Shown: positions 429 through 17,411 of the stretch, piece after piece | How the letters are laid out: each line of letters opens with the position of its first letter | Position numbering within the stretch: the stretch's first letter is position 1 | IMG/VR virus record: IMGVR_UViG_3300040801_002004 | Span: 1 to 39,596 of that record | Origin: a virus | Length of the DNA stretch: 39,596 bases | Direction: 5' to 3' (one strand) | Position numbers and translations under genes: made by a program | Notes under the pieces: generated by a model | The model's input: only the letters and a program-made list of their open reading frames with translations | The model's database searches: none | Told to the model about the DNA's origin: nothing

Positions 429-785
429 TTAACTTTCCATGCGCTTATAGCAGGCCAGCGCACCGGGATCCTTTGGCCGATCATCGACCAGATTACCTGA
501 CGCCTGGGCGTCGATCAGGATCGCCATGCACGCCATGGCGTGGGCGTAGTGCAACTGACCGCTCTCGGGATCGATGTCCTCGCCCAGCTCCGCCAGGGTC
601 AGATGACGCATGGCCGCGGCGATATAGACGCTCTCGCGCACGCTGTTCTCGCGCCAGTTATAGGGGCCGTACTTCTTCGCCCCCAGGCTCATGACCCAGC
701 TCAAGGCCGCGACAGCGACCTTTGGGATGAGATGCAGCGGCGTCTTCGTATCGCCGATAGCGTCCTTGGGGTTAACGCCCTGCAT
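429..785 (-). CDS. DUF5664-type dATP/dGTP diphosphohydrolase-like protein
   Basis: The 118-aa product matches the short phage family named after the N-terminal domain of dATP/dGTP diphosphohydrolases (formerly DUF5664). The recognisable pattern is NPKDAIGDTKTPLHLIP at the N-terminus, then KKYGPYNWRE, an AAAMRHL helix and GEDIDPESGQLHYAHA, a set of conserved acidic and His positions suited to metal-dependent nucleotide hydrolysis. It overlaps thyX by 14 bases and lies just after it and a MazG-like gene, so a role in adjusting the dNTP pool is likely. The family's activity is known from few members; the role here is inferred from name and context. Confidence 0.7.
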   Translation of the reverse strand: MQGVNPKDAIGDTKTPLHLIPKVAVAALSWVMSLGAKKYGPYNWRENSVRESVYIAAAMRHLTLAELGEDIDPESGQLHYAHAMACMAILIDAQASGNLVDDRPKDPGALACYKRMES

Positions 786-1458
786 TATGCGTCTCCCAGG
801 CAGCGATGGCGGCCGGCACGAACGGTTTGATCAGCTCCAGCATGGCCTCGGCGTACACTTTTATTTCATACTGTGCGCCGTCAGCCGTGCGCTCGCTGAT
901 GAACTTCAGCAGGTTGTGCAGATCCACCGTGGCGAACATCTCGCTGTAGGTCGCCACGGGCAGGACGCTACGCGCCAGCTCACGGGGTACGCCGTCCAAC
1001 AGGAGCTGCTTGTACACCCCAAACGCGGCGCGGTTAATGGCACTCATAATATTCACGACGTACTGCTCATGGTCCCGGGTGACCGGGTCCACTTCGATAT
1101 TTCTAGCTTGATGGTTTTTACCATCCTGCTTGCCGACTTTGCCGACCTCTGGCAGGTAGAACTCCTCTGGCAGCTCCGTGTACCGGGCGCTGACCTCGTT
1201 GTAGCTCCAGGTACGGTGCCGATGCCACTGCCGTAAGACGAAGATCGGCGCCTTCACATGGAAGGTGAACACCGGGTGCTCGAAGGGCGACGTATGGCCG
1301 TTCCGATACAGGAAGTCCACCAGCTTGAAATCCGCAGCCGGGTCGTCGCCGGTCTTCTCATTCGCGGCGTGAGAAACGCGCGCCGAGCGCACGATGCTGT
1401 TGTCGTCACCCATGTGATCGACCATACGGATGAAACCGTGATCCAGTAACTTAATCAT
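772..1458 (-). CDS. thyX: FAD-dependent thymidylate synthase ThyX
   Basis: The 228-aa product converts dUMP to dTMP using methylenetetrahydrofolate, NADPH and FAD. The diagnostic ThyX signature RHR-x7-S is intact at residues 80-90 (RHRTWSYNEVS, followed by ARYTEL). HTSPFEH at 55-61 and the RQWHRHR helix supply further flavin and substrate contacts typical of the family. The length is normal for ThyX. It overlaps the MazG-like gene upstream and the dATP/dGTP hydrolase-like gene downstream by a few bases, forming a three-gene nucleotide block directly after the DNA polymerase gene. It would supply dTMP for phage DNA independently of host ThyA. Confidence 0.95.
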   Translation of the reverse strand: MIKLLDHGFIRMVDHMGDDNSIVRSARVSHAANEKTGDDPAADFKLVDFLYRNGHTSPFEHPVFTFHVKAPIFVLRQWHRHRTWSYNEVSARYTELPEEFYLPEVGKVGKQDGKNHQARNIEVDPVTRDHEQYVVNIMSAINRAAFGVYKQLLLDGVPRELARSVLPVATYSEMFATVDLHNLLKFISERTADGAQYEIKVYAEAMLELIKPFVPAAIAAWETHNAGR

Positions 1459-1820
1459 TGGACATCCACCCGCGCCAGACTGGCAGCATCCGAGTAGCCG
1501 TCCGCGTACCGAGCACGCAGCTTGGTGATGTTCAACTGCAGGATGACCTCACGATCCAGATCATAGGTCCGCCGCAGTAGCGACAGGTAGAACTCCAAAT
1601 CGCCAAGCTCCTCCATCAGTTTATTGGTGTCCATGTCCCGACCGTTGATGACGGTCTTCTTGATCAAATCGACCACCTCACCGGCCTCACCGGCAATGCC
1701 GAGCGCCGCGTGCATGGCATCGATCTCGACACCCTCCAGGTTGGCGTCGATTTCAGCCGCCGGTTTAGTCAGGTCCATGACCAGCATACGGTGCTTACGT
1801 TCTGTGCTTGTTTCGTTCAT
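1455..1820 (-). CDS. MazG-like nucleotide pyrophosphohydrolase
   Basis: The 121-aa product has the all-alpha NTP pyrophosphohydrolase signature: GEAGEVVDLIKK at about residues 44-55 (the ExxE metal site, E45 and E48) and EELGDLEFYL at 70-79 (the ExxD site, E71 and D74). Single-domain MazG-like proteins of this size hydrolyse (d)NTPs to monophosphates. The start at 1820 has GAGGA eight bases upstream. It overlaps thyX by four bases (ATGA). Together these suggest dNTP pool control during replication; some phage MazG proteins act on ppGpp instead, which cannot be decided from sequence. Confidence 0.85.
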   Translation of the reverse strand: MNETSTERKHRMLVMDLTKPAAEIDANLEGVEIDAMHAALGIAGEAGEVVDLIKKTVINGRDMDTNKLMEELGDLEFYLSLLRRTYDLDREVILQLNITKLRARYADGYSDAASLARVDVQ

Positions 1821-3878: not shown

Positions 3879-4063
3879 TGTAATGTCCCCCGGTCTGCCT
3901 CAATCTCCGCCAGCGTGCCGGCTATGATCTCGACGTCGTAGACGGCGCCGATGACTTCCAGCGTGTCGTTAATCACAACCTCCAGCGGCATACCTGCCTC
4001 GCGCGCGGCGATAAAATGGCGGATAGCAGCGCAGGCGGTGCAGTCTGGGTTATCGCAGGTCAT
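3875..4063 (-). CDS. Small Cys-containing protein of unknown function
   Basis: The 62-aa product has an N-terminal Cys cluster (MTCDNPDCTACAAIRHF, cysteines at 3, 8 and 11) followed by an acidic C-terminal half. It may bind a metal. Its start overlaps the methyltransferase stop and its stop overlaps the polymerase start, both as four-base ATGA junctions, so it is translationally coupled within the replication operon. That coupling is the main evidence that it is real. No family recognised. Confidence 0.6.
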   Translation of the reverse strand: MTCDNPDCTACAAIRHFIAAREAGMPLEVVINDTLEVIGAVYDVEIIAGTLAEIEADRGTLH

Positions 4064-5391
4064 GCGAAAAACCTCGTGAACTCTTCCCAGCTACCGCAGT
4101 CAGGCGCTAGTGATAGATCGTCTATGCCTTCGCCTATCCACCGCATCACCGGGACAGCCATTGAGTTGCCCAAAGCCTTGTAGCGAGGGCCGCCCGGGCA
4201 TTGGGCCGCTGGTTTGTTGCGGTAGGGAATCTGCGTGAAATCGTCGGGAAAGCCTTGTAGCCGCTCACACTCACGGGGAGTGAGCCGGCGCACGGCCATG
4301 TCTTGCATAACCGCTGTGCCGCCCTGAGAGCATGTTGGGTTTAACCCGCTAGCTGCGTCTAAGGTCTTAGATGTGGGCTCATTTTCTTTGACGTAAAATC
4401 CGCCCTGCGGCCTGTCCTTGCGCTTATTGCCTCCATAAAAACTCAAGGCCACCGCAGGAGGTGATGCCCTATCCAAAGTTTGAGTTATCTCTTCTGAATA
4501 ATTCTTACCGTTCGCGCCAGTGTTTGCAGTCTGGATGGCAATCGCCGGATACCCTTGCCCCGGCTTGCCGCCGCCCGAGCTCAGTGCGCCGACTGTCTCA
4601 CTGGTGCTAAGTTCGCCGCGCTGGTTCTGAGCGAAGGCGACACAGTTAAAACTATCGGCCCTGCTGTAATCGTGGCAGGTTGTCTCCAGCGTCCCGGCTA
4701 CGTCTGTTTGCTGGTTTCCGCTGAACGTCATCGGAACTAACGGCGTCCCTCGCCCGGTTCCGTCCTCGCTGGCGTCGAAGCCCTCGCCTCTAAGGCTATG
4801 CGTAACGCCTCCGGCAATGCCTTGCCCCTTTTCTCGGCTCGGCGCAGGATTCCCTGACAGGCTTTCGCGCTCAAAAAGAACCGCTGCGGCACGCTCTGCA
4901 CCTCCAAGACATCCGACAACAAACACACGGCGGCGGCGCTGGGCCACTCCGAAGTATTGAGCGTCCAGGACTCGGTAGGCCCACCCATACCCGAGCTCTG
5001 CCAACGCCCCGAGGAAGGAACCAAAGTCCCGTCCTCGTCCGCTGGACAAGACGCCGGGCACGTTTTCCCAGACCACGTACTGGGGTCGGTATCGGTCAGC
5101 GATAGCAAGAAACGTAAGGGCGAGGTTGCCGCGAGGGTCTGACAGTCCTTTGCGAAGTCCTGCAACCGAGAACGACTGGCAGGGCGTCCCTCCCACGAGT
5201 AGGTCGAGTTCATAGTCAGGCCACTCCTTGAATTTAGTCATGTCGCCGAGATTCGGCACGTTGGGGTAGTGATGCTCAAGCACGGCAGCGGGGAACGCCT
5301 CAATCTCACTGAAGAACTGCGGCTGCCAGCCCATGTGGTGCCACGCCATCGTCGCGGCCTCAATGCCACTGCAGACAGATCCGTATTTCAT
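4060..5391 (-). CDS. DNA (cytosine-5) methyltransferase
   Basis: The 443-aa product transfers methyl groups from S-adenosylmethionine to C5 of cytosine. Visible motifs are I (GSVCSGIEAA, residues 4-13), IV with the catalytic Cys (GGTPCQSFS, C71), VI (ENV, 109-111), VIII (QRRRRVF, 151-157), IX (RRLTPRECERLQGFP) and X (ALGNSMAVP). The region between VIII and IX is long, about 230 residues, and would hold the target recognition domain. I start it at 5391 because that ATG overlaps the upstream stop as TAATG; an ATG at 5427 in frame would add 12 residues. No cognate restriction gene is seen, so protection against host restriction is the likely role. A long ORF is open in another frame inside the 5' half. 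Confidence 0.93.
   Translation of the reverse strand: MKYGSVCSGIEAATMAWHHMGWQPQFFSEIEAFPAAVLEHHYPNVPNLGDMTKFKEWPDYELDLLVGGTPCQSFSVAGLRKGLSDPRGNLALTFLAIADRYRPQYVVWENVPGVLSSGRGRDFGSFLGALAELGYGWAYRVLDAQYFGVAQRRRRVFVVGCLGGAERAAAVLFERESLSGNPAPSREKGQGIAGGVTHSLRGEGFDASEDGTGRGTPLVPMTFSGNQQTDVAGTLETTCHDYSRADSFNCVAFAQNQRGELSTSETVGALSSGGGKPGQGYPAIAIQTANTGANGKNYSEEITQTLDRASPPAVALSFYGGNKRKDRPQGGFYVKENEPTSKTLDAASGLNPTCSQGGTAVMQDMAVRRLTPRECERLQGFPDDFTQIPYRNKPAAQCPGGPRYKALGNSMAVPVMRWIGEGIDDLSLAPDCGSWEEFTRFFA
4737..5213 (-). CDS. Possible overlapping ORF inside the methyltransferase gene
   Basis: A 158-codon ORF is open in the alternate frame on the same strand, covering the region that encodes methyltransferase motifs IV to VIII. 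Its product would begin MNSTYSWEGRPASRSRL and end with a basic region containing KACQGILRRAEKRGKALP. From memory, very similar stretches occur as annotated hypothetical proteins in other phages, which would mean either real dual coding or repeated annotation of a frame shadow. No convincing ribosome site precedes the ATG at 5213. Treated as uncertain. Confidence 0.25.
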   Translation of the reverse strand: MNSTYSWEGRPASRSRLQDFAKDCQTLAATSPLRFLLSLTDTDPSTWSGKTCPASCPADEDGTLVPSSGRWQSSGMGGPTESWTLNTSEWPSAAAVCLLSDVLEVQSVPQRFFLSAKACQGILRRAEKRGKALPEALRIALEARASTPARTEPGEGRR

Positions 5392-5579
5392 TAGTAATAC
5401 CCCGGCGGGCATTGGCAGGTCGGGCAAACAATCGCGACCTTCGTTGGGAAACTGGAGCGGTCATAGCAATAGCGGACCTGCTCTTGGGGCTGGGCGTCGG
5501 CGTCATCCGTCAACACGATAGTCAGTAGGATAATAAGCACGCCAAAAACCAGCGCTGCTTCGATAGCATCTCTAAACAT
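5391..5579 (-). CDS. Small membrane or secreted protein
   Basis: The 62-aa product has a short N-terminal segment, one hydrophobic helix (about residues 8-24, AALVFGVLIILLTIVL) and then an acidic and Cys-containing tail (YCYDRSS, VCPTCQCPPGYY). This looks like a signal anchor with a small extracytoplasmic Cys-rich domain. ADA-QPQ after the helix could also be a signal peptidase site. It lies after a leftward terminator and its stop overlaps the methyltransferase start (TAATG). Function unknown; a superinfection-exclusion type role is only a guess. Confidence 0.6.
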   Translation of the reverse strand: MFRDAIEAALVFGVLIILLTIVLTDDADAQPQEQVRYCYDRSSFPTKVAIVCPTCQCPPGYY

Positions 5580-9388: not shown

Positions 9389-9943
9389 ATGAAGAATACA
9401 GACAATCTACCCTCCGCGCAACGTCTGCGCGAGCTACTAGCATACGACCCTGACACAGGTATTCTGACCTGGAAGCGGCGTCGTAACCTGCACCCTAAAG
9501 ACAGGTTTAATCTGAAATACGCTGGCAGTGTAGCCGGGTGCGTAGCGCCTGGAATGGGCCGCCGGCAGCCGTACATCAAGGTCCGCATAGACAACCGTCT
9601 ACAGCAGGCGCACAGAGTGATCTGGTGCATGGCCCACGGTGTGTGGCCGACGCAGCCGATAGACCATATAAACGGCGTTGGTACAGACAACAGGCTAGTT
9701 AACCTGCGTGTTGTGTCCCACCAAGAAAACAGCCGGAACCGCCCGATGAACCGCAACAATAGTTCAGGCGTGGTCGGCGTGCATTGGGATAGCGGCCGGG
9801 AGTGTTGGGTGGCTAGTCTTAAATCTGGGTACTCAAAAGTCTTACAGAAACGATTCGACAGCTTCCTGGACGCCGTCGCTGCGCGCAAGTCAGCCGAGAA
9901 CAGCCACGGTTTCCACCCCAACCACGGGAGGACTGCCGGATGA
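9389..9943 (+). CDS. HNH homing endonuclease with AP2 domain
   Basis: The 184-aa product has an N-terminal region of the type that precedes phage HNH domains (LLAYDPDTGILTWKRR), an HNH core (HRVIWCMAHG, then DHINGVGTDNRLVNLRVVS with the DHING and Asn motifs) and a C-terminal AP2-like DNA-binding domain (NNSSGVVGVHWDSGRECWVA). The architecture is that of free-standing phage homing endonucleases. A strong AGGAAGGA precedes the ATG. It sits between the helicase and primase genes, just after a terminator, and overlaps the primase start by four bases. Confidence 0.92.
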   Translation: MKNTDNLPSAQRLRELLAYDPDTGILTWKRRRNLHPKDRFNLKYAGSVAGCVAPGMGRRQPYIKVRIDNRLQQAHRVIWCMAHGVWPTQPIDHINGVGTDNRLVNLRVVSHQENSRNRPMNRNNSSGVVGVHWDSGRECWVASLKSGYSKVLQKRFDSFLDAVAARKSAENSHGFHPNHGRTAG

Positions 9944-10884: not shown

Positions 10885-12131
10885 AGAAGAGCCAATTACC
10901 CGACCAGAAAAAGACCGCCAACGGCAACCTAGCCGGCAGTCAAAACCTCACCGTACCCAACCTGCAGTTCGTCCTCAGCGGCATGGGCATCGGCGTCAGA
11001 CACAACATGATGACCAACACCATCGAATACAGCGGCGTCGCACAAGACGCACTCACACAAGACGCCACACGCCTCACCGTGCAAGACATGTTATTGGGGT
11101 TGGACATCAACAACCTGGGCCGCTACGACGAGATAGTCGGCGCACTCGGGCGGCGATCACCCTACCACCCCATGGAAGAATGGATGAAAACGCTGCCGCC
11201 AGCCTCAGGCGACCCCATCGGCGACCTCATCGCCTCCGTGAAGACCGATAACCCACTCTGGCCCGTCTACCTGGAAAACTGGCTCATCCAGGTCGTCGAG
11301 GCCGTCTGCGGCTGGCGCGGCAAGGAGAAAGCCTCCATCCCCCACGTCCTGGTGCTGGCCGGCGCACAAGGGGCGGGGAAATCGTTCTGGCTCAAGCGCC
11401 TCGGAGGGCCATGGTTCAAAGGTGAGGCCGAACTGCACTTATCGACAAGCAGCGGCAAAGACCACCAACTGGAGGCGCTCAAGTACCCCATGGTCGAACT
11501 ATCCGAACTGGACGGCATCTTCCGTAAGGCCGATATCGCCCACATGAAGTCATTCATCTCACGCGAGATCGACTCCATACGCTCACCCTACGAACGGAAA
11601 GCCACCATCCGACCCCGCATGACCTCCTTCTGCGCCTCCGTCAACGAGGCCGAGTTCCTCAACGACCCCAGCGGCTCGCGACGCTTCTGGCCGGTGTCCG
11701 TGGACGCTATCGACTGGAGCTATAAGGCGGACCTGGAAGGCATCTGGTCAGAAGCCTACCGACTGTGGCGCGTGGACCCCAATTTCAACCTCACCGCGGA
11801 TGAAGACGCACAGCGCGCATCGATGGCCCTGGACGTCCACACCATGTCCTCAGAGATGGAAGAAACCATCACGGAATACTACCGCCGGCACGTCGAGGTG
11901 GAGCGTTTTAAAGAGGCTCCAATGAACCGCACAGAGATCCTGAAAATGCTGTTCGGGAACCGCGCTTTTAGCCCAAAAGACATATCACATGCCGGAAAAA
12001 TCATTGCTGATATCAGGGGGAAACACAAAACACTGGACGGAAAGCAGCGTGCATGGATGTTCCCATATAACGAATTTGCCATCGACAGGGCCACTTGGCC
12101 TGATAAAAATCACATGAAAATCGTCAAGTGA
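10881..12131 (+). CDS. VapE/VirE-family AAA+ replicative helicase
   Basis: The 416-aa product belongs to the virulence-associated E family (superfamily 3-like ATPases). It has Walker A GAQGAGKS (161-168), Walker B MVELSELD (204-211), a sensor-like SFCASVNE (249-256) and the arginine-finger region DPSGSRRFWPV (262-272). The N-terminal 150 residues are family-specific. The GTG start at 10881 is preceded by CAGGAG and overlaps the primase stop (GTGA). It is expected to unwind the replication fork with the upstream primase. This is the last gene of the replication block; a terminator follows within 15 bases. Confidence 0.88.
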   Translation: MKKSQLPDQKKTANGNLAGSQNLTVPNLQFVLSGMGIGVRHNMMTNTIEYSGVAQDALTQDATRLTVQDMLLGLDINNLGRYDEIVGALGRRSPYHPMEEWMKTLPPASGDPIGDLIASVKTDNPLWPVYLENWLIQVVEAVCGWRGKEKASIPHVLVLAGAQGAGKSFWLKRLGGPWFKGEAELHLSTSSGKDHQLEALKYPMVELSELDGIFRKADIAHMKSFISREIDSIRSPYERKATIRPRMTSFCASVNEAEFLNDPSGSRRFWPVSVDAIDWSYKADLEGIWSEAYRLWRVDPNFNLTADEDAQRASMALDVHTMSSEMEETITEYYRRHVEVERFKEAPMNRTEILKMLFGNRAFSPKDISHAGKIIADIRGKHKTLDGKQRAWMFPYNEFAIDRATWPDKNHMKIVK

Positions 12132-12176: not shown

Positions 12177-12300
12177 ATCATTATCAGATAGATACAGAAG
12201 AATTATATATATATATTTTGTATAGTCTAATAGGGAATTTGATCGTTGCTGATGATATTTGGGGCCGAGCGAGGATCCGCGCGCTCGCCCCCGACGACCG

Positions 12301-12367
12301 GGGGGACCGCTATGGCAAATGTTTTCAGGCTCCCGAAAATGGGGGGAACCGCTATGGCAAATCTTTT
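12301..12367. repeat. Two-copy direct repeat, 42-bp period
   Basis: ACCGCTATGGCAAAT occurs at 12306-12320 and 12348-12362. Each copy is preceded by a run of five or six G and followed by a T-rich tetrad (GTTTT/CTTTT). The second copy overlaps the end of the leftward gene at 12352. A tract rich in alternating T and A (about 12200-12225) lies just upstream. Function unknown; an operator, iteron or processing site are possible. Confidence 0.6.
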
Positions 12368-12687
12368 GAATCTTTCAACTGACGACCGAACAACTTCCCC
12401 CGGTTGCGCGCGCCGCGCCCCTGCCCGGCGACCGCCGGATCCGTCCGCGGGTCAATGCCGCGCTGCCGGCGGCGCCAGGCGCGCGCCGCACGCGCTTGCG
12501 GCGTCTGCACGCGGCCGGCGTACTCGCGCAAACCCTCCGCCAGGTAATCCGCGGCTTTTTGTTCATGCCGCTCCGCCAATACCTCAAAAGACGGACCGCG
12601 GCCGCCCGGCCGGATCTCGCCGGCTTCCAGGCGTGCGCGTGCGATTGCCGCGCGTTCTAGGTGGTAGCGTATCTTGTAAAGCTTCAT
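12352..12687 (-). CDS. Arg-rich small protein of accessory island
   Basis: The 111-aa product starts at 12687, where AGGAG stands six bases upstream; an in-frame start further up would run through a terminator hairpin. It is strongly basic: MKLYKIRYHLERAAIARARL, then helical Glu/Arg/Ala repeats and RAARAWRRRQRG. It is probably a helical nucleic-acid-binding or structural protein, but no family is recognised. It is the last gene of the leftward island and is separated from the gene before it by a strong terminator, so its expression needs read-through or a separate promoter. Confidence 0.5.
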   Translation of the reverse strand: MKLYKIRYHLERAAIARARLEAGEIRPGGRGPSFEVLAERHEQKAADYLAEGLREYAGRVQTPQARAARAWRRRQRGIDPRTDPAVAGQGRGARNRGKLFGRQLKDSKDLP

Positions 12688-12703
12688 TCTGGCTCCTGAG
12701 TGC

Positions 12704-12731
12704 AAAAAAATGCCCGACATATAGTCGGGCA
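12704..12731 (-). terminator. Intrinsic terminator, leftward, inside accessory island
   Basis: On the minus strand TGCCCGAC pairs with GTCGGGCA around a five-base loop and is followed by seven T. It lies 25 bases after the gene at 12756-13253 and only a few bases before the ribosome site of the next gene. Confidence 0.9.
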
Positions 12732-12755
12732 TAGGGTAGCACTTGCGGCCGTCTG

Positions 12756-13253
12756 CTAGGCTAAGGCGCGGCCGTAGCGCGCCGCGCGTGTTTTACCCAT
12801 ACCGCGCCGGTACTTTGCGCAAACTAGCGCGACGGCGCCGGGCATATTCTCGCACGTTATTTTTATGTGCGGCCGGCCGGTAGACTGCCCCGGCGTGCCG
12901 CCAGTAAATACGCGGAATTGAATCCGGCCATCCGCCAACGTGTCGAATAAACCCTCGCTGTACAGTTTCTCAATTTCCCCGGCGATATCCTGCAGCATGC
13001 GCGGCGCATTAGCGCCAGGCTTGCGCATAGTCGCGTGTCGCTCTACTTTCGCCAGCGCGGCTAATACCTCAGGAATGTGAAAATAGCGCCGCGCCAGGTC
13101 GCGCATGAAACATTCCAGCGCCAGGGCTAGAGACGCATTACCCGCAAGCTTCGCCTGTAGGTGATCATCGGCAATGGTGGCCGGCGGAATATGCGCGTCC
13201 AGGCTTGCGTATATCCGCGCGGCTTTCGGATCGTTCATTAATTTATTGATCAT
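12756..13253 (-). CDS. Accessory island protein of unknown function
   Basis: The 165-aa product is not recognised. The N-terminal two thirds look alpha-helical (KLAGNASLALALECFMRDLA, EVLAALAKVERHA), the C-terminal part looks like a small mixed domain with RIQFRVFTGG and HIKITCENM strands, and the end is basic (KYRRGMGKTRAARYGRAL). GGGAG precedes the ATG. It follows the GP88-like gene by 17 bases in the same direction, so the two are probably co-transcribed and may work together. A strong terminator follows it. Confidence 0.6.
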   Translation of the reverse strand: MINKLMNDPKAARIYASLDAHIPPATIADDHLQAKLAGNASLALALECFMRDLARRYFHIPEVLAALAKVERHATMRKPGANAPRMLQDIAGEIEKLYSEGLFDTLADGRIQFRVFTGGTPGQSTGRPHIKITCENMPGAVALVCAKYRRGMGKTRAARYGRALA

Positions 13254-13270
13254 GGTAGAAACTCCCGCGC

Positions 13271-14089
13271 TTAGTGCGCTGCTATGATGATATCGACATT
13301 GTTAAACTTATCGGATCCGCACGCATGCCCGCCCGGCGTACACTCGCCACACTTACCCGGGCAAGTAAAGCACGCGCCGCCATATGCTGCGCGCAGCTCT
13401 GCCTGATGCGCGCGATCGCCATGATCCGCGCTCTTCACTGCGCGCCCAAGGTCTACCGCTACAAACCGGCCGCGCGTCATCGGTAGCGCCGCAATTTTCG
13501 CGACGGTAGCCGCGCTGTGATTGTGACCGCTCGAAAGGTTTAGCCGGTAGTTAGGCGGTGCAGGATCAGCCGCTAGCAGCTCATAAAAAGATTTAGAATA
13601 ACCATAACATTTTATATGTTGTACTTTACCCAGTATTTTCCACCATGTATTGACGGTCGCGACGCTATCAAAATCGCCGTCAACATAAAGTCTAAAATCG
13701 ATAGGGTCTTGGTACTTGTCAAAGGCGGCCGCCACTAGATCGGGGCGCTTGCGGATTAACACTAGATTTTGCGCTTGTCGCGCAAATGCCGCGGGATAGC
13801 GCCAGCTCTTAAATGAATAGCAAAAGCTTAGACAATCGCCAGCTCCAGGGCATGCTGCACCCGGCAAGCCGGAAAAGCTTAGGAACGGCAGTTTATCGTT
13901 TCCAAGCGTTAAGATACTGGCAAAAGGTTCGTGCGATGGATCGCGCAAGAATATGGCCAGCCGCGCTAGAAATCGATTCCATGCCGGCCCCGGCTCAGAC
14001 TCCAGCGCTTTATCTATGCGCCGCGCTGCAGCCGCTAGGCGGCCGCGTGCGATGTCATTAGCGATTGTGTGTAGGGTTGATATTTTCAT
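13271..14089 (-). CDS. GP88-like cysteine-rich phage protein
   Basis: The 272-aa product resembles the phage family named gene product 88. The matching core is LPGAACPGAGDCLSFCYSF (Cys 80, 86, 90), a Tyr and Arg/Gln-rich helix (RYPAAFARQAQN), a strand FRLYVDGDFDS (133-142) and CYGYSKSF (161-168). Near the C-terminus is a second group of five cysteines (240, 243, 247, 250, 257). The two clusters suggest metal or iron-sulphur binding, and the alternating strands and helices would suit a barrel fold. No activity is established for the family to my knowledge. It starts by ATGA overlap with the small gene upstream. Confidence 0.6.
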   Translation of the reverse strand: MKISTLHTIANDIARGRLAAAARRIDKALESEPGPAWNRFLARLAIFLRDPSHEPFASILTLGNDKLPFLSFSGLPGAACPGAGDCLSFCYSFKSWRYPAAFARQAQNLVLIRKRPDLVAAAFDKYQDPIDFRLYVDGDFDSVATVNTWWKILGKVQHIKCYGYSKSFYELLAADPAPPNYRLNLSSGHNHSAATVAKIAALPMTRGRFVAVDLGRAVKSADHGDRAHQAELRAAYGGACFTCPGKCGECTPGGHACGSDKFNNVDIIIAAH

Positions 14090-14316
14090 GAGTGCGCCTC
14101 TATGTGAGCTAACGTCAATTTTCCGTAGTGCATGCCAGCGCGAACAATCGCCAGTTTGCCGTCGTGATTTGGAAGACTATATCCCCAGGATGAATCCACC
14201 GCGGTACATACGCGCCGGCCGTCAATCGTGAATGCATAGCGCGGATTACCATTTAGACTGCTAGGCATGCGCCGCACATCCAATACAGTACCGCTCAAAG
14301 TGATGATGTTTTTCAT
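14086..14316 (-). CDS. Small beta-rich island protein
   Basis: The 76-aa product is dominated by predicted strands (ITLSGTVLDVRRM, RYAFTIDGRRVCTAV, GKLAIVRAGMHYGKLTLAHIE), suggesting an OB-like or SH3-like barrel, though this is inferred only from the pattern. GGAG precedes the ATG and its stop overlaps the start of the GP88-like gene (ATGA), so the two are coupled. Unknown function. Confidence 0.55.
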   Translation of the reverse strand: MKNIITLSGTVLDVRRMPSSLNGNPRYAFTIDGRRVCTAVDSSWGYSLPNHDGKLAIVRAGMHYGKLTLAHIEAHS

Positions 14317-14339
14317 AAGGTTTTACTCCGCCAAGAAAT

Positions 14340-14357
14340 GGCCGCCGGATAGCGGCC
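14340..14357 (-). other. Hairpin between island genes, possible attenuator
   Basis: On the minus strand a 6-bp stem (GGCCGC/GCGGCC, six-base loop) is followed by ATTTCTT. It lies between the first and second island genes and could be a weak terminator or attenuator. Confidence 0.35.
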
Positions 14358-14364
14358 GGATGGT

Positions 14365-14769
14365 TCACCAATTAATCACCAGACCATTAGCGCGCCGCAA
14401 ACCTTCAGCAAGTATCACGCGCCAAACCGGAAGAGTGAAAAAATCCAAACAATTAAAATCAGAATCATGCACGCCAATAGTGCCGGCGTTATCGTGGATC
14501 ACTACCAGGCGCTCGCCGGTGGCGCTTAGATAACCATGCTCCGCGGCATGAGCTGCTTTAGTCGCAGCGCGATGCTTGATAGTGCAGGCTTCCACGATGT
14601 AATAGTCTTTTTCAGCCGGCGTGTGCTCGCCGTTACAATTCACGCAAGAGCCGCGCGGCATATCATCCAATAAATACTTATCTGGCGTGCGCGTGGGTAT
14701 TCCTTCAATACAGTATTGGCAATATGGCTCGTTATTGGTGTTTATGTAGTGAGGTGTAATGTTATCCAT
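14365..14769 (-). CDS. Zinc-ribbon-like island protein
   Basis: The 134-aa product begins MDNITPHYIN and contains two CxxC pairs, CQYC and CVNC, about 25 residues apart, a classic zinc-ribbon spacing. The rest is helical in the middle (TKAAHAAEHGYLS) and has short strands (RLVVIHDNAGTIGVHD). The start at 14769 is chosen for the AAGGG element about ten bases upstream; the longer frame to 14865 has no ribosome site and crosses the putative promoter. It is the first gene of the leftward island. It could be a nucleic-acid-binding regulator; this is inference. Confidence 0.6.
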   Translation of the reverse strand: MDNITPHYINTNNEPYCQYCIEGIPTRTPDKYLLDDMPRGSCVNCNGEHTPAEKDYYIVEACTIKHRAATKAAHAAEHGYLSATGERLVVIHDNAGTIGVHDSDFNCLDFFTLPVWRVILAEGLRRANGLVINW

Positions 14770-14848: not shown

Positions 14849-14887
14849 ATTACAATATAAAACACAACATATTTAATATTTATTTAT

Positions 14888-14922
14888 CAGGCTGCAGCCC
14901 GTCGGCCGTCGGCCGCAGCCTG
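14888..14922. repeat. GC-rich hairpin in control region
   Basis: CAGGCTGC (14888-14895) pairs with GCAGCCTG (14915-14922), and the stem extends inward by three more pairs after one mismatch. There is no T-run in either direction, so it is not a standard terminator. Its loop side carries CGGCCGTCGGCCG, whose reverse complement recurs at 15036-15048. Confidence 0.6.
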
Positions 14923-15186
14923 GTAGTCAATTGGCTTGTGTCGCTAACGTGCAGAGTGCGTATTTAACATAATGCCCCTTACGCGCAGTGCAGGCGGAAC
15001 GTCGAGAAACGTGCAAGCCGGCGCGCGCCTGGTTCCGGCCGACGGCCGCGGAGCGACGGCCGACGTCCCCGGCCGCCTTTCTAAAAACAGCGCTAGTACT
15101 TGTACGGAGGGGCATCTATAAATTTTTTCTGGATTTGAGAAACCACCCCCTGTAGGCTGCAGTTTCTGAATTAAAGGCGCACAACC

Positions 15187-15711
15187 ATGTATACACCCCT
15201 GGAAGAGTTCCCGGCCTGGGAGATAAGCCCAAAAGGCGACATACGTCACCGCAAGACGAAGAAGCCGAAGTATTTCGAGTTAAGGGACGGGTATCCCCGC
15301 ACCACGTTCGAGGTCAAAGGAAAGCGCGCGCGGAGAATGGTTCACCGGCTTGTGGCGCAGACGTTCATCCCCAATCCTGACGGCAAAGAGACGGTTAATC
15401 ACATCAACGGCGTTAAGGACGATAACCGGGCAGAGAACTTGGAGTGGGCTACCTTTGCGGAGAACGTCCAGCATGCGTGGGCTACTGGACTTAACGAGAA
15501 TGTATCTAAGATGAAATGCACCAAGTACGCCACACAACTAACGCTGCCAGGCTCCGGCCGCGGATTGGTGCTGTTCGGGTGGAAAGAGATACGCGCGGCG
15601 GGGTTCAACGACCAGGTGGTGTCGATACACGCCAACAGACCGGGGTTCCTGAAACTACACAAAAAACATGAAGTGGCTATCATACCGATAGAGAAAACCG
15701 TGAACTGGTGA
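15187..15711 (+). CDS. HNH homing endonuclease with NUMOD4-like domain
   Basis: The 174-aa product has an N-terminal NUMOD4-like segment (FPAWEISPKGDIRH), an HNH core (HRLVAQTFIPNPDGK then NHINGVKDDNRAENLEWAT) and a C-terminal DNA-binding tail with a short NUMOD-like repeat (LVLFGWKEIRAAGF). This is the usual layout of free-standing phage HNH enzymes. AAAGG stands nine bases before the ATG. It sits at the boundary between the control region and the packaging genes, a frequent location for such elements. Confidence 0.9.
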   Translation: MYTPLEEFPAWEISPKGDIRHRKTKKPKYFELRDGYPRTTFEVKGKRARRMVHRLVAQTFIPNPDGKETVNHINGVKDDNRAENLEWATFAENVQHAWATGLNENVSKMKCTKYATQLTLPGSGRGLVLFGWKEIRAAGFNDQVVSIHANRPGFLKLHKKHEVAIIPIEKTVNW

Positions 15712-15759: not shown

Positions 15760-16026
15760 ATGCCCAAACCACCAGCCAAGCAACAGAAAGACCTCATAAC
15801 GACCCTCAAAGAGGGAACGCCGATGCAGCAGCTGTTCGGCCAAACCTTCGAGGAACTTGGCGGACAGGCTTTCTTCACGGATTGGGCGGAGGAGAACCCG
15901 GGGACGTTCATCCAGATGATGATGTCGCTGATGCCGCAGCACTCGCCCTCGGGCAACACGGCCAACGTCATTAACATTCACCCGGGGCTGGCGCCCGGCC
16001 CCCTTGACGTGGTTAGCGAGCAGTGA
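15760..16026 (+). CDS. Putative small terminase subunit (short form)
   Basis: The 88-aa product precedes the large terminase and overlaps it by four bases (GTGA). Its middle part (GQTFEELGGQAFFTDWAEENPGTF, then MMMSLMPQ) resembles the C-terminal region of many phage small terminases, where a Gly-Gly, a Trp-Ala and an Asn-Pro precede a hydrophobic helix. The N-terminal helix-turn-helix of longer small terminases is missing. A clear AGGAGG precedes the ATG. The role in recognising the packaging site is inferred from position and this resemblance. Confidence 0.55.
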   Translation: MPKPPAKQQKDLITTLKEGTPMQQLFGQTFEELGGQAFFTDWAEENPGTFIQMMMSLMPQHSPSGNTANVINIHPGLAPGPLDVVSEQ

Positions 16027-17411
16027 TTGACCTCCCCTACGAGCCGCGCGATCAGTTTCTGGACTTCCACCAGCGGCAGGAGCGTAACGCCTTGATGGTG
16101 TGTCATCGGCGTATGGGGAAGACGGTGGGGTGCATTGGCGATTTGGTGGTGCGCGCCCTGCACACGTCCAAACCGAACGCCCGATTTGGCTATGTGGCGC
16201 CGTTTCGCCAGCAGGCGAAGGAGATTGCCTGGACGTACCTGAAGAACATGACTGAGGGGATCCGCGTTGAGAAGGCCCGGGAGTCCGAGCTGCGGGTGAA
16301 GCTACCCAATGACGCCTGGATCACGCTGTACGGCGCCGATAACCCCGATGCGCTGCGCGGCTTGTATTTTGACGGTCTGATTCTGGACGAGTTTGGGGAT
16401 ATGAAGCCCAGTCTGATGGGTGAGGTCATCCTGCCGTGTCTGGCCGATCGTGAAGGGTTCATGGTTCTTATTGGCACGGCGAAGGGCCGGAATCAGTTTT
16501 ACGATTACAAGCTGAAGGCCGAGGATCCGGCCAGCGGGTGGTTCTATAAGAATCAGAAGGCGTCTGAGACGGGCATTATCCCGCAGGATGAGCTGGACCG
16601 CATGCGCGAGGTTATGGGTGAGGCGCAGTACGCCCAGGAGATGGAGAACGATTTTGACGCCGCCTTACCGGGCCGGTACTACGCGGACCTGATCAACACG
16701 ATTGAGGAAGACGGCCGCATCACCGAGGACGACCTCTACGACCCGAATCAGAAGGTGCATGTGGCGGCTGATGTCGGGCTACGCGATTCCACCGCCTGGT
16801 GGTTTTGGCAGCCGCGCAAAGACGGCATTGCGGTGATTGATTATTACGAGGCCTCGGGCGTTCACGTTGACCACTACCTGGGTATGCTCAAGGAGAAGGG
16901 GTATGAGTACGCCGAGGTGTGGCTGCCGCACGATGCGAAGGCCAAATCCTTAGCCACGCGCCGCTCGACGATGGAGCAGATACGCATCCCGTCGATTGTG
17001 CGCCCTGATCTGTACGACGGTGGATTTGTGATGCCGGTGCGGATGGTGCCAAAGCTCTCCGTTCAGCACGGTATCGACGCGGTGCGCCTCATTTTGCCGA
17101 AATGCTACATTTCGACGGCCAGGGGTACGCCCCGCGGCCTTGACTGTCTGCGCAGTTATCGACGGCAGTGGCACGAGCACACGCAGAGTTTCAGTGACAC
17201 GCCGCTACATGACTGGGCCAGCAACGGTGCGGACGGTTTCCGCTACCTGGCGTTGGTGGCGGAAAAGTCGTCGGGAGAGTTTCTGGAGCGGCCTGCTGGA
17301 TTGGGTTCGCTGGGCCTCGGTCGCCACGGCAACAGTGAAGGGTATACACTAGAGCAGTTGTTTGAGGACCGAAACTCTGGTAATTGGAGGCAATCTGTCC
17401 TCCGCATATAG
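16023..17411 (+). CDS. terL: Large terminase subunit
   Basis: The 462-aa product is the packaging motor. The ATPase half has a variant Walker A CHRRMGKT (27-34), Walker B LILDEFGD (119-126) and the coupling motif GTAKGRNQFY (151-160). The RNase H-like nuclease half has acidic residues in AADVGLRDST (D250), LPHDAKAK (D304) and DWASNGADGFRY near residue 410. The GTG start overlaps the small subunit stop. The neighbouring P22-like portal suggests headful packaging, but the packaging type is not provable from this alone. Confidence 0.95.
   Translation: MIDLPYEPRDQFLDFHQRQERNALMVCHRRMGKTVGCIGDLVVRALHTSKPNARFGYVAPFRQQAKEIAWTYLKNMTEGIRVEKARESELRVKLPNDAWITLYGADNPDALRGLYFDGLILDEFGDMKPSLMGEVILPCLADREGFMVLIGTAKGRNQFYDYKLKAEDPASGWFYKNQKASETGIIPQDELDRMREVMGEAQYAQEMENDFDAALPGRYYADLINTIEEDGRITEDDLYDPNQKVHVAADVGLRDSTAWWFWQPRKDGIAVIDYYEASGVHVDHYLGMLKEKGYEYAEVWLPHDAKAKSLATRRSTMEQIRIPSIVRPDLYDGGFVMPVRMVPKLSVQHGIDAVRLILPKCYISTARGTPRGLDCLRSYRRQWHEHTQSFSDTPLHDWASNGADGFRYLALVAEKSSGEFLERPAGLGSLGLGRHGNSEGYTLEQLFEDRNSGNWRQSVLRI

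Follow-up and report, generated by a model that had tools for sequence, protein, structure and literature searches.

GP88 proteins (PF17338, 'Gene product 88'; phrog_1392) occur in mycobacteriophages and Streptomyces phages, and our search of the literature found no functional study of GP88 or PF17338. In this work we focused on a group of five consecutive leftward genes, named g5, g4, g3, g2 and g1 from right to left, in the virus record IMGVR_UViG_3300040801_002004 of IMG/VR. The whole stretch of DNA analysed, of 39,596 nucleotides (39.6 kb), is called the window in the following. One of the five genes, g3, encodes a GP88 protein, and its neighbour g4 encodes a very small protein with a predicted oligonucleotide/oligosaccharide-binding (OB) fold. 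We tentatively propose, at somewhat less than an even chance, that they belong to an early or accessory operon built around an iron-sulfur (Fe-S), radical S-adenosylmethionine (SAM)-like GP88 enzyme coupled with a nucleic-acid-binding partner.

Radical-SAM proteins carry a Cys motif, canonically Cx3Cx2C, after strand 1 of their barrel and a GGE motif after strand 2. DUF5131 (phage Gp37/Gp68, PF07505) is a phage-associated family with a Cys motif of the type GC...C..CY. As for small phage proteins weakly resembled by the g4 family, TreK is encoded in the terminal repeats of staphylococcal phages (PMC5618024), and these repeats hold early host-takeover genes (PMC6445280).

The GP88 protein encoded by g3

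The g3 gene (coordinates from 13271 to 14089, minus strand) encodes a protein of 272 residues, which matches PF17338 with an E-value of 1.9e-18 and 67.6 bits, the gathering cut-off being 24.4 bits. The Cys, GD and YxYTK/YGYSK-like motifs of the family and its last strands are all covered by the match. Relatives were gathered from IMG/VR using a scan for the pattern CPGAxxCxxxCY and an alignment-guided scan, the latter resulting in 407 relatives. All 42 relatives that were aligned match PF17338 and have the Cys motif CPGAxxCxxxCY in common with g3. The initial annotation, which saw no clear function in any of the five products, was therefore too categorical, as g3 belongs to the GP88 family and g4 has a predicted OB fold.

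The motifs of g3 are Cx5Cx3C (C80, C86, C90), VDGD, YGYSKS, a C-terminal Cx3Cx2Cx6C (C243, C247, C250, C257) and a C-terminal His. The close subfamily of g3 consists of proteins of about 290 residues that are 36-48% identical to it in the alignment, and 40 residues are invariant across 30 divergent members, including C80, C86, C90, D137-D139, YGYSKS, C243, C247, C250, C257 and H272. The second Cys cluster was present in 66 of 71 subfamily members and in none of 51 other GP88 proteins from the same motif scan. The subfamily, a large uncultivated group, is marked out within GP88 by this extra Cx3Cx2Cx6C, by its terminal His and by its conserved place in the genome, where it lies divergently from the terminase genes (see below). 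Searches of cultured phages by tblastn with g3 and one subfamily member gave no close match to the subfamily and distant matches at most; the same type of search in plasmids gave distant Streptomyces matches only, and a sequence search of solved structures had no match for g3.

AlphaFold2, using 42 aligned sequences, predicted a partial TIM barrel for g3 (predicted local distance difference test (pLDDT) 92.7, predicted template modelling score (pTM) 0.88). The model was compared with 999 chains using VIA-align, a re-ranking of Foldseek's own matches, among which were many TIM barrels other than radical-SAM enzymes. Radical-SAM enzymes filled 13 of the 14 top rows, with Z from 5.0 to 7.6, ahead of the other TIM barrels. 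The top row was spore photoproduct lyase (SPL, 4fhe; Z 7.6, root-mean-square deviation (rmsd) 4.6, 188 residues, 11% identity), and further rows were lysine 2,3-aminomutase (LAM, 6.4), lipoyl synthase (LipA, 5.8), viperin (5.5) and TYW1 (5.5). In this model, strand 70-73 leads into the first Cys motif and strand 131-137 closes with VDGD, so that three Cys after strand 1 and an acidic motif after strand 2 occupy the same places as the Cys and GGE motifs of radical-SAM proteins. This ranking and the placement of the motifs suggest that g3 may have a radical-SAM-like fold. A search of BFVD with g3 retrieved GP88 proteins and, soon after them, Gp37/Gp68 (DUF5131, probability 0.97), 'Fe-S oxidoreductase' and radical-SAM phage proteins.

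A His as the very last residue was also seen in a long GP88 clade (locus L132, 1774-2931; locus L107, 403-2082; and similar loci), where the proteins end in LLIH or LMFH, and short GP88 proteins have an internal YHG on apparently the same strand as this terminal His. Close GP88 genes were in addition found on contigs of bacterial metagenome-assembled genomes (L141-L145; Planctomycetaceae, Rhodospirillaceae, Pirellulaceae, Marinimicrobia and Acidiferrobacter), which are probably viral contigs or prophages.

The OB-fold protein g4, the operon and its genomic position

The g4 gene (coordinates from 14086 to 14316, minus strand) encodes 76 residues and matches phrog_20597 with an E-value of 1.4e-10. 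Its AlphaFold2 model is a five-stranded OB barrel (pLDDT 94.1), for which VIA-align gave PriB (4fdb) a Z of 10.0 and an rmsd of 1.9 with 73 of the 76 residues covered, SSB and PriB proteins filling most of the top rows. Unlike these proteins, g4 is shorter, lacks the SSB tail and has no sequence-family match, Pfam showing no SSB/PriB match for g4 or its relatives. We found 74 relatives in IMG/VR and, by tblastn in cultured phages, distant matches at most; a sequence search of solved structures returned antibody-chain noise only. TreK (PF24229) was weakly matched by 22 of 37 members of the g4 family (best E-value 0.0024); g4 itself scored 14.2 bits, below the Pfam cut-off of 22 bits, and its phage is of a different type. 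The stop codon of g4 overlaps the start codon of g3 (ATGA), and the two genes are therefore probably translationally coupled, which in this phage ties a GP88 protein to an OB-fold protein.

The list of open reading frames (ORFs) contains five successive leftward ORFs from 12352 to 14769, as initially described, between replication genes and packaging genes. Both flanks are rightward: a VapE-type helicase gene whose end is at 12131, and the HNH, TerS and TerL genes from 15187. A strong rho-independent terminator with a 9-bp stem and a T run is located between g2 and g1 (from 12732 to 12710, minus strand; fold z -6.0), and a weaker small hairpin between g5 and g4 (from 14357 to 14340, minus strand; z -2.6); both signals had been claimed from the first reading of the sequence, and both were confirmed. 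The terminator delimits a predicted transcription unit g5-g4-g3-g2, with g1 beyond it. As the annotated ATG of g1 (12732) falls within the terminator hairpin, g1 most likely starts at the ATG at 12687, behind the sequence CAGGAG.

The position of the subfamily relative to the terminase genes was analysed in 99 non-redundant close GP88 loci, 61 of which had at least 4 kb upstream and 46 of which had 4 kb downstream. Of the 61 loci, 38 had terL on the opposite strand within the 4 kb upstream and none had it on the same strand; of the 46, none had it within 4 kb downstream. For other GP88 proteins this divergent position was occupied by a terminase in 1 of 28 cases. As these loci had themselves supplied the terminase seeds, the test was repeated on whole contigs with the independent phrog_2 profile, the positions being worked out by hand. 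An opposite-strand upstream terminase was then present in all 12 subfamily contigs with a match, at 1.4 to 8.4 kb (for one contig, on condition that it is circular), versus 0 of 10 other GP88 contigs within 10 kb. The g4 family independently has the same layout, an opposite-strand terminase lying upstream in 16 of 44 cases, a same-strand one in 0, and a downstream one in 0 of 43. The window has this arrangement too: on the strand opposite to g3, terL starts 1.9 kb upstream of it. The conserved feature, to judge from these data, is the location: early or accessory genes begin here divergently from the packaging genes, while the gene content varies.

The gene set itself does not recur, contrary to the proposal of one undescribed five-gene system. 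The same five-gene order was not found in other phages, the g3 and g4 families mostly occur apart, and for g5 and g2 no relatives could be detected. Since none of the GP88 or g4 loci fetched contained a homologue of g1, g2 or g5, and since g3 and g4 are rarely paired, the five genes do not form a heritable unit, as far as the data show. We also considered that the small ORF directly upstream of GP88 might always be a g4 homologue, which was rejected, as these upstream ORFs differ between loci. A search for the island in relatives of the terminase failed because most of their contigs end in the repeat-rich stretch just upstream of TerS.

Candidate functions of the operon

In the mechanism that we propose, g5-g4-g3-g2 would be transcribed away from the terminase genes as far as the terminator, g1 lying beyond it. 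The Cx5Cx3C of g3, located in the loop that follows barrel strand 1, would bind one Fe-S cluster, and its C-terminal Cx3Cx2Cx6C, possibly with the terminal His, would hold a second metal or Fe-S site, the protein performing radical-SAM-type chemistry. Single-stranded nucleic acid would be bound by the OB fold of g4, which may hand the substrate to g3. As an outcome, a nucleic acid or nucleotide would be modified or repaired early in infection; this could protect the DNA or RNA of the phage or change the host, to the benefit of the phage. GP88, so far a named family without a function, would thereby gain a fold hypothesis and named candidate ligands.

Several observations weigh against this proposal. 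The Cys spacing after strand 1 is Cx5Cx3C, and Cx3Cx2C is found in g3 only near the C-terminus (C243, C247, C250). PF04055 (Radical_SAM) had no match in the window at E-values up to 10, and none is listed for the aligned relatives. A local profile-profile comparison of g3 with DUF5131, SPL and LipA gave nothing significant and no better result than a TIM-barrel control. Foldseek against the PDB was weak, its best E-value being 0.047 and N-acetylneuraminate lyase ranking first, and the VIA-align Z values are all below 8, a level under which a match is not safe by itself. A close GP88 and a g4 relative were found together in one other contig only (IMGVR_UViG_3300027752_000048), and a functional partnership between the two is therefore weak. 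A search of the minus strand upstream of g5 revealed no sigma-70-like site, so that the 'own promoter' of the initial annotation comes down to an AT-rich intergenic region. Finally, g3 is linked to nucleic acids by the coupled OB-fold protein and the SPL-like barrel, and by nothing beyond these.

Given the Cys spacing, the missing PF04055 match and the negative profile-profile comparison, g3 is not assigned to the radical-SAM superfamily, although its mode of action may be that of such enzymes. We consider its use of SAM slightly more probable than the contrary, and a nucleic acid or nucleotide as its substrate, which is suggested by g4 and by the likeness to SPL, rather unlikely.

A first alternative is that the small genes of the island serve anti-defence or host takeover, each on its own, the shared position being a hotspot of early-gene starts beside the packaging genes. 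The position does recur with differing gene content, the g3 and g4 families each use it independently, the g4 family is weakly TreK-like, and, as is typical of accessory genes that change fast, g5, g2 and g1 are orphans. Against this, PADLOC had no model matched by any of the five island products, no anti-defence family or inhibitor-like homologue was recognised, and the strong active-site-like conservation of g3 favours a fixed enzymatic role. We regard this alternative as a possibility to be taken seriously, although we rather doubt it. Of the anti-defence or host-takeover role put forward initially, the part that stands is an operon of accessory, early type that has control signals of its own, which is plausible in view of the recurrent terminase-divergent position and the TreK-like matches; neither the family searches nor the defence library pointed to anti-defence.

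A second alternative concerns g3, which might be a barrel-fold metalloprotein, with Zn or a structural Fe-S cluster and without use of SAM, such as a hydrolase or a host-binding protein. Its radical-SAM likeness would then reflect a shared barrel arrangement, as Z values below 8 can, and the unusual Cys spacing, the lyase at the head of the Foldseek list and the lack of any profile link to radical-SAM families are in agreement with this. Nevertheless, radical-SAM enzymes fill nearly all of the best VIA-align rows despite the many other TIM barrels compared, three invariant Cys stand at the radical-SAM cluster site, and the BFVD neighbours following the GP88 proteins point in the same direction. 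We hold this explanation to be doubtful, if quite conceivable.

The SSB/PriB-like fold also makes a replication role possible for one of the genes, in part contrary to their initial description as an undescribed system. The g4 protein would then simply serve the phage in replication, in the manner of SSB or PriB, and the island would be an opposite-strand part of the replication module. Polymerase, helicase and primase genes indeed lie to the left, and the genes searched included no other recognisable SSB. This explanation is nonetheless unlikely, as the g4 family is located divergently from the terminase and not among replication genes, and as g4 has just 76 residues, no acidic SSB tail and no SSB/PriB match in Pfam. 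That the island ORFs are mostly spurious, favoured by the GC-rich, CGCG-dense sequence, is very improbable: g1, g2 and g5 have no relatives and the plus strand also carries ORFs overlapping the island genes, but g3 has hundreds and g4 dozens of relatives, and the island ORFs show Shine-Dalgarno-like sequences, tight spacing and a coding-like GC content by codon position.

Returning to the radical-SAM-like operon, its most far-reaching form is that a widespread, undescribed enzyme subfamily with two Cys clusters and an architecture like that of radical-SAM enzymes, terminase-divergent across unrelated phages, modifies the nucleic acid of phage or host by a new radical reaction at an early stage of infection, helped in this phage by a dedicated mini-SSB. 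This form we consider improbable. If the radical-SAM reading is true, hundreds of environmental phages bear a radical enzyme in an early-gene position.

Orphan genes, flanking genes and non-coding elements

The first gene of the operon, g5 (coordinates from 14365 to 14769, minus strand), encodes 134 residues from the ATG at 14769, preceded by GAAGGG, with an alternative in-frame upstream start at the GTG at 14865. It has a zinc-ribbon-like CxxC ... CxxC pattern near the N-terminus, and no family match above noise, and no relatives turned up in either IMG/VR or cultured phages. The g2 gene (coordinates from 12756 to 13253, minus strand; 165 residues), preceded by GGGAG, has a weak best profile match (phrog_34060, E-value 0.005), and no relatives were found in the IMG/VR scan or by tblastn in cultured phages. 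The g1 gene (coordinates from 12352 to 12687, minus strand; 111 residues) had no family match in the profile-library searches. The two Cys-rich products and the Arg-rich one noticed at the outset are g3 (9 Cys), g5 (6 Cys) and g1 (20 Arg).

A near-DNA search against cultured phages found no match. The density of the island in GCGC and CGCG, also noticed initially, is real, with 126 occurrences against a mean of 39 (standard deviation 14.5, maximum 71) in equal windows elsewhere in the genome. This excess does not surpass the second-order Markov expectation and is due to a trinucleotide and codon use rich in GCG and CGC. The codon use of the island is atypical (distance 0.205, against a mean of 0.121 and a maximum of 0.226 elsewhere), without being unique or the most extreme in this genome.

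To the left of the island are genes for ThyX, MazG, PolA, a cytosine-C5 methyltransferase, an exonuclease, helicases and a primase. The ThyX-type thymidylate synthase adjoins the MazG-like pyrophosphatase (772-1820, minus strand) beside PolA, as a nucleotide-metabolism set. The cytosine-C5 DNA methyltransferase gene (4060-5427, minus strand) matches phrog_116; a DNA-modification pair of GP88 with such an enzyme, seen in 5 of 35 subfamily contigs and 0 of 25 other GP88 contigs, was dismissed as too weak and confounded by phage type. An HNH endonuclease gene (9389-9943, plus strand) has a relative between TerS and TerL in L005 (3088-3588) and is therefore a mobile homing-type gene. A scan of IMG/VR for the VapE helicase found nothing. 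To the right lie a second HNH endonuclease gene (15187-15711, plus strand; PF13392, E-value 2e-10), a putative small terminase subunit gene (15760-16026, plus strand) that precedes terL and is kept upstream of it in the relatives L002-L008, the gene of the large subunit (16023-17411, plus strand; phrog_2, E-value 7.3e-31; 80% identity to L002), and structural genes.

The divergent intergenic region between g5 and the HNH and TerS genes (14866-15186) contains GTCGGCCG repeats, a hairpin rich in GC at about 14885-14926 and, upstream of TerS, a pair of short non-coding elements at 14962-14989 and 15078-15128. These two elements, which read ATTTAACATAAT...TTAcGCGCA and ...AGTACTTGTaC..., are conserved in related phages (L002, 11-38 and 147-197), within the repeat-rich stretch in which the contigs of these relatives end; they are possibly a packaging (cos) or control site. 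At the other end of the island, a 39-nucleotide direct repeat containing ACCGCTATGGCAAAT (12287-12367; two copies 42 bp apart, 82% identical) overlaps the 3' end of g1.

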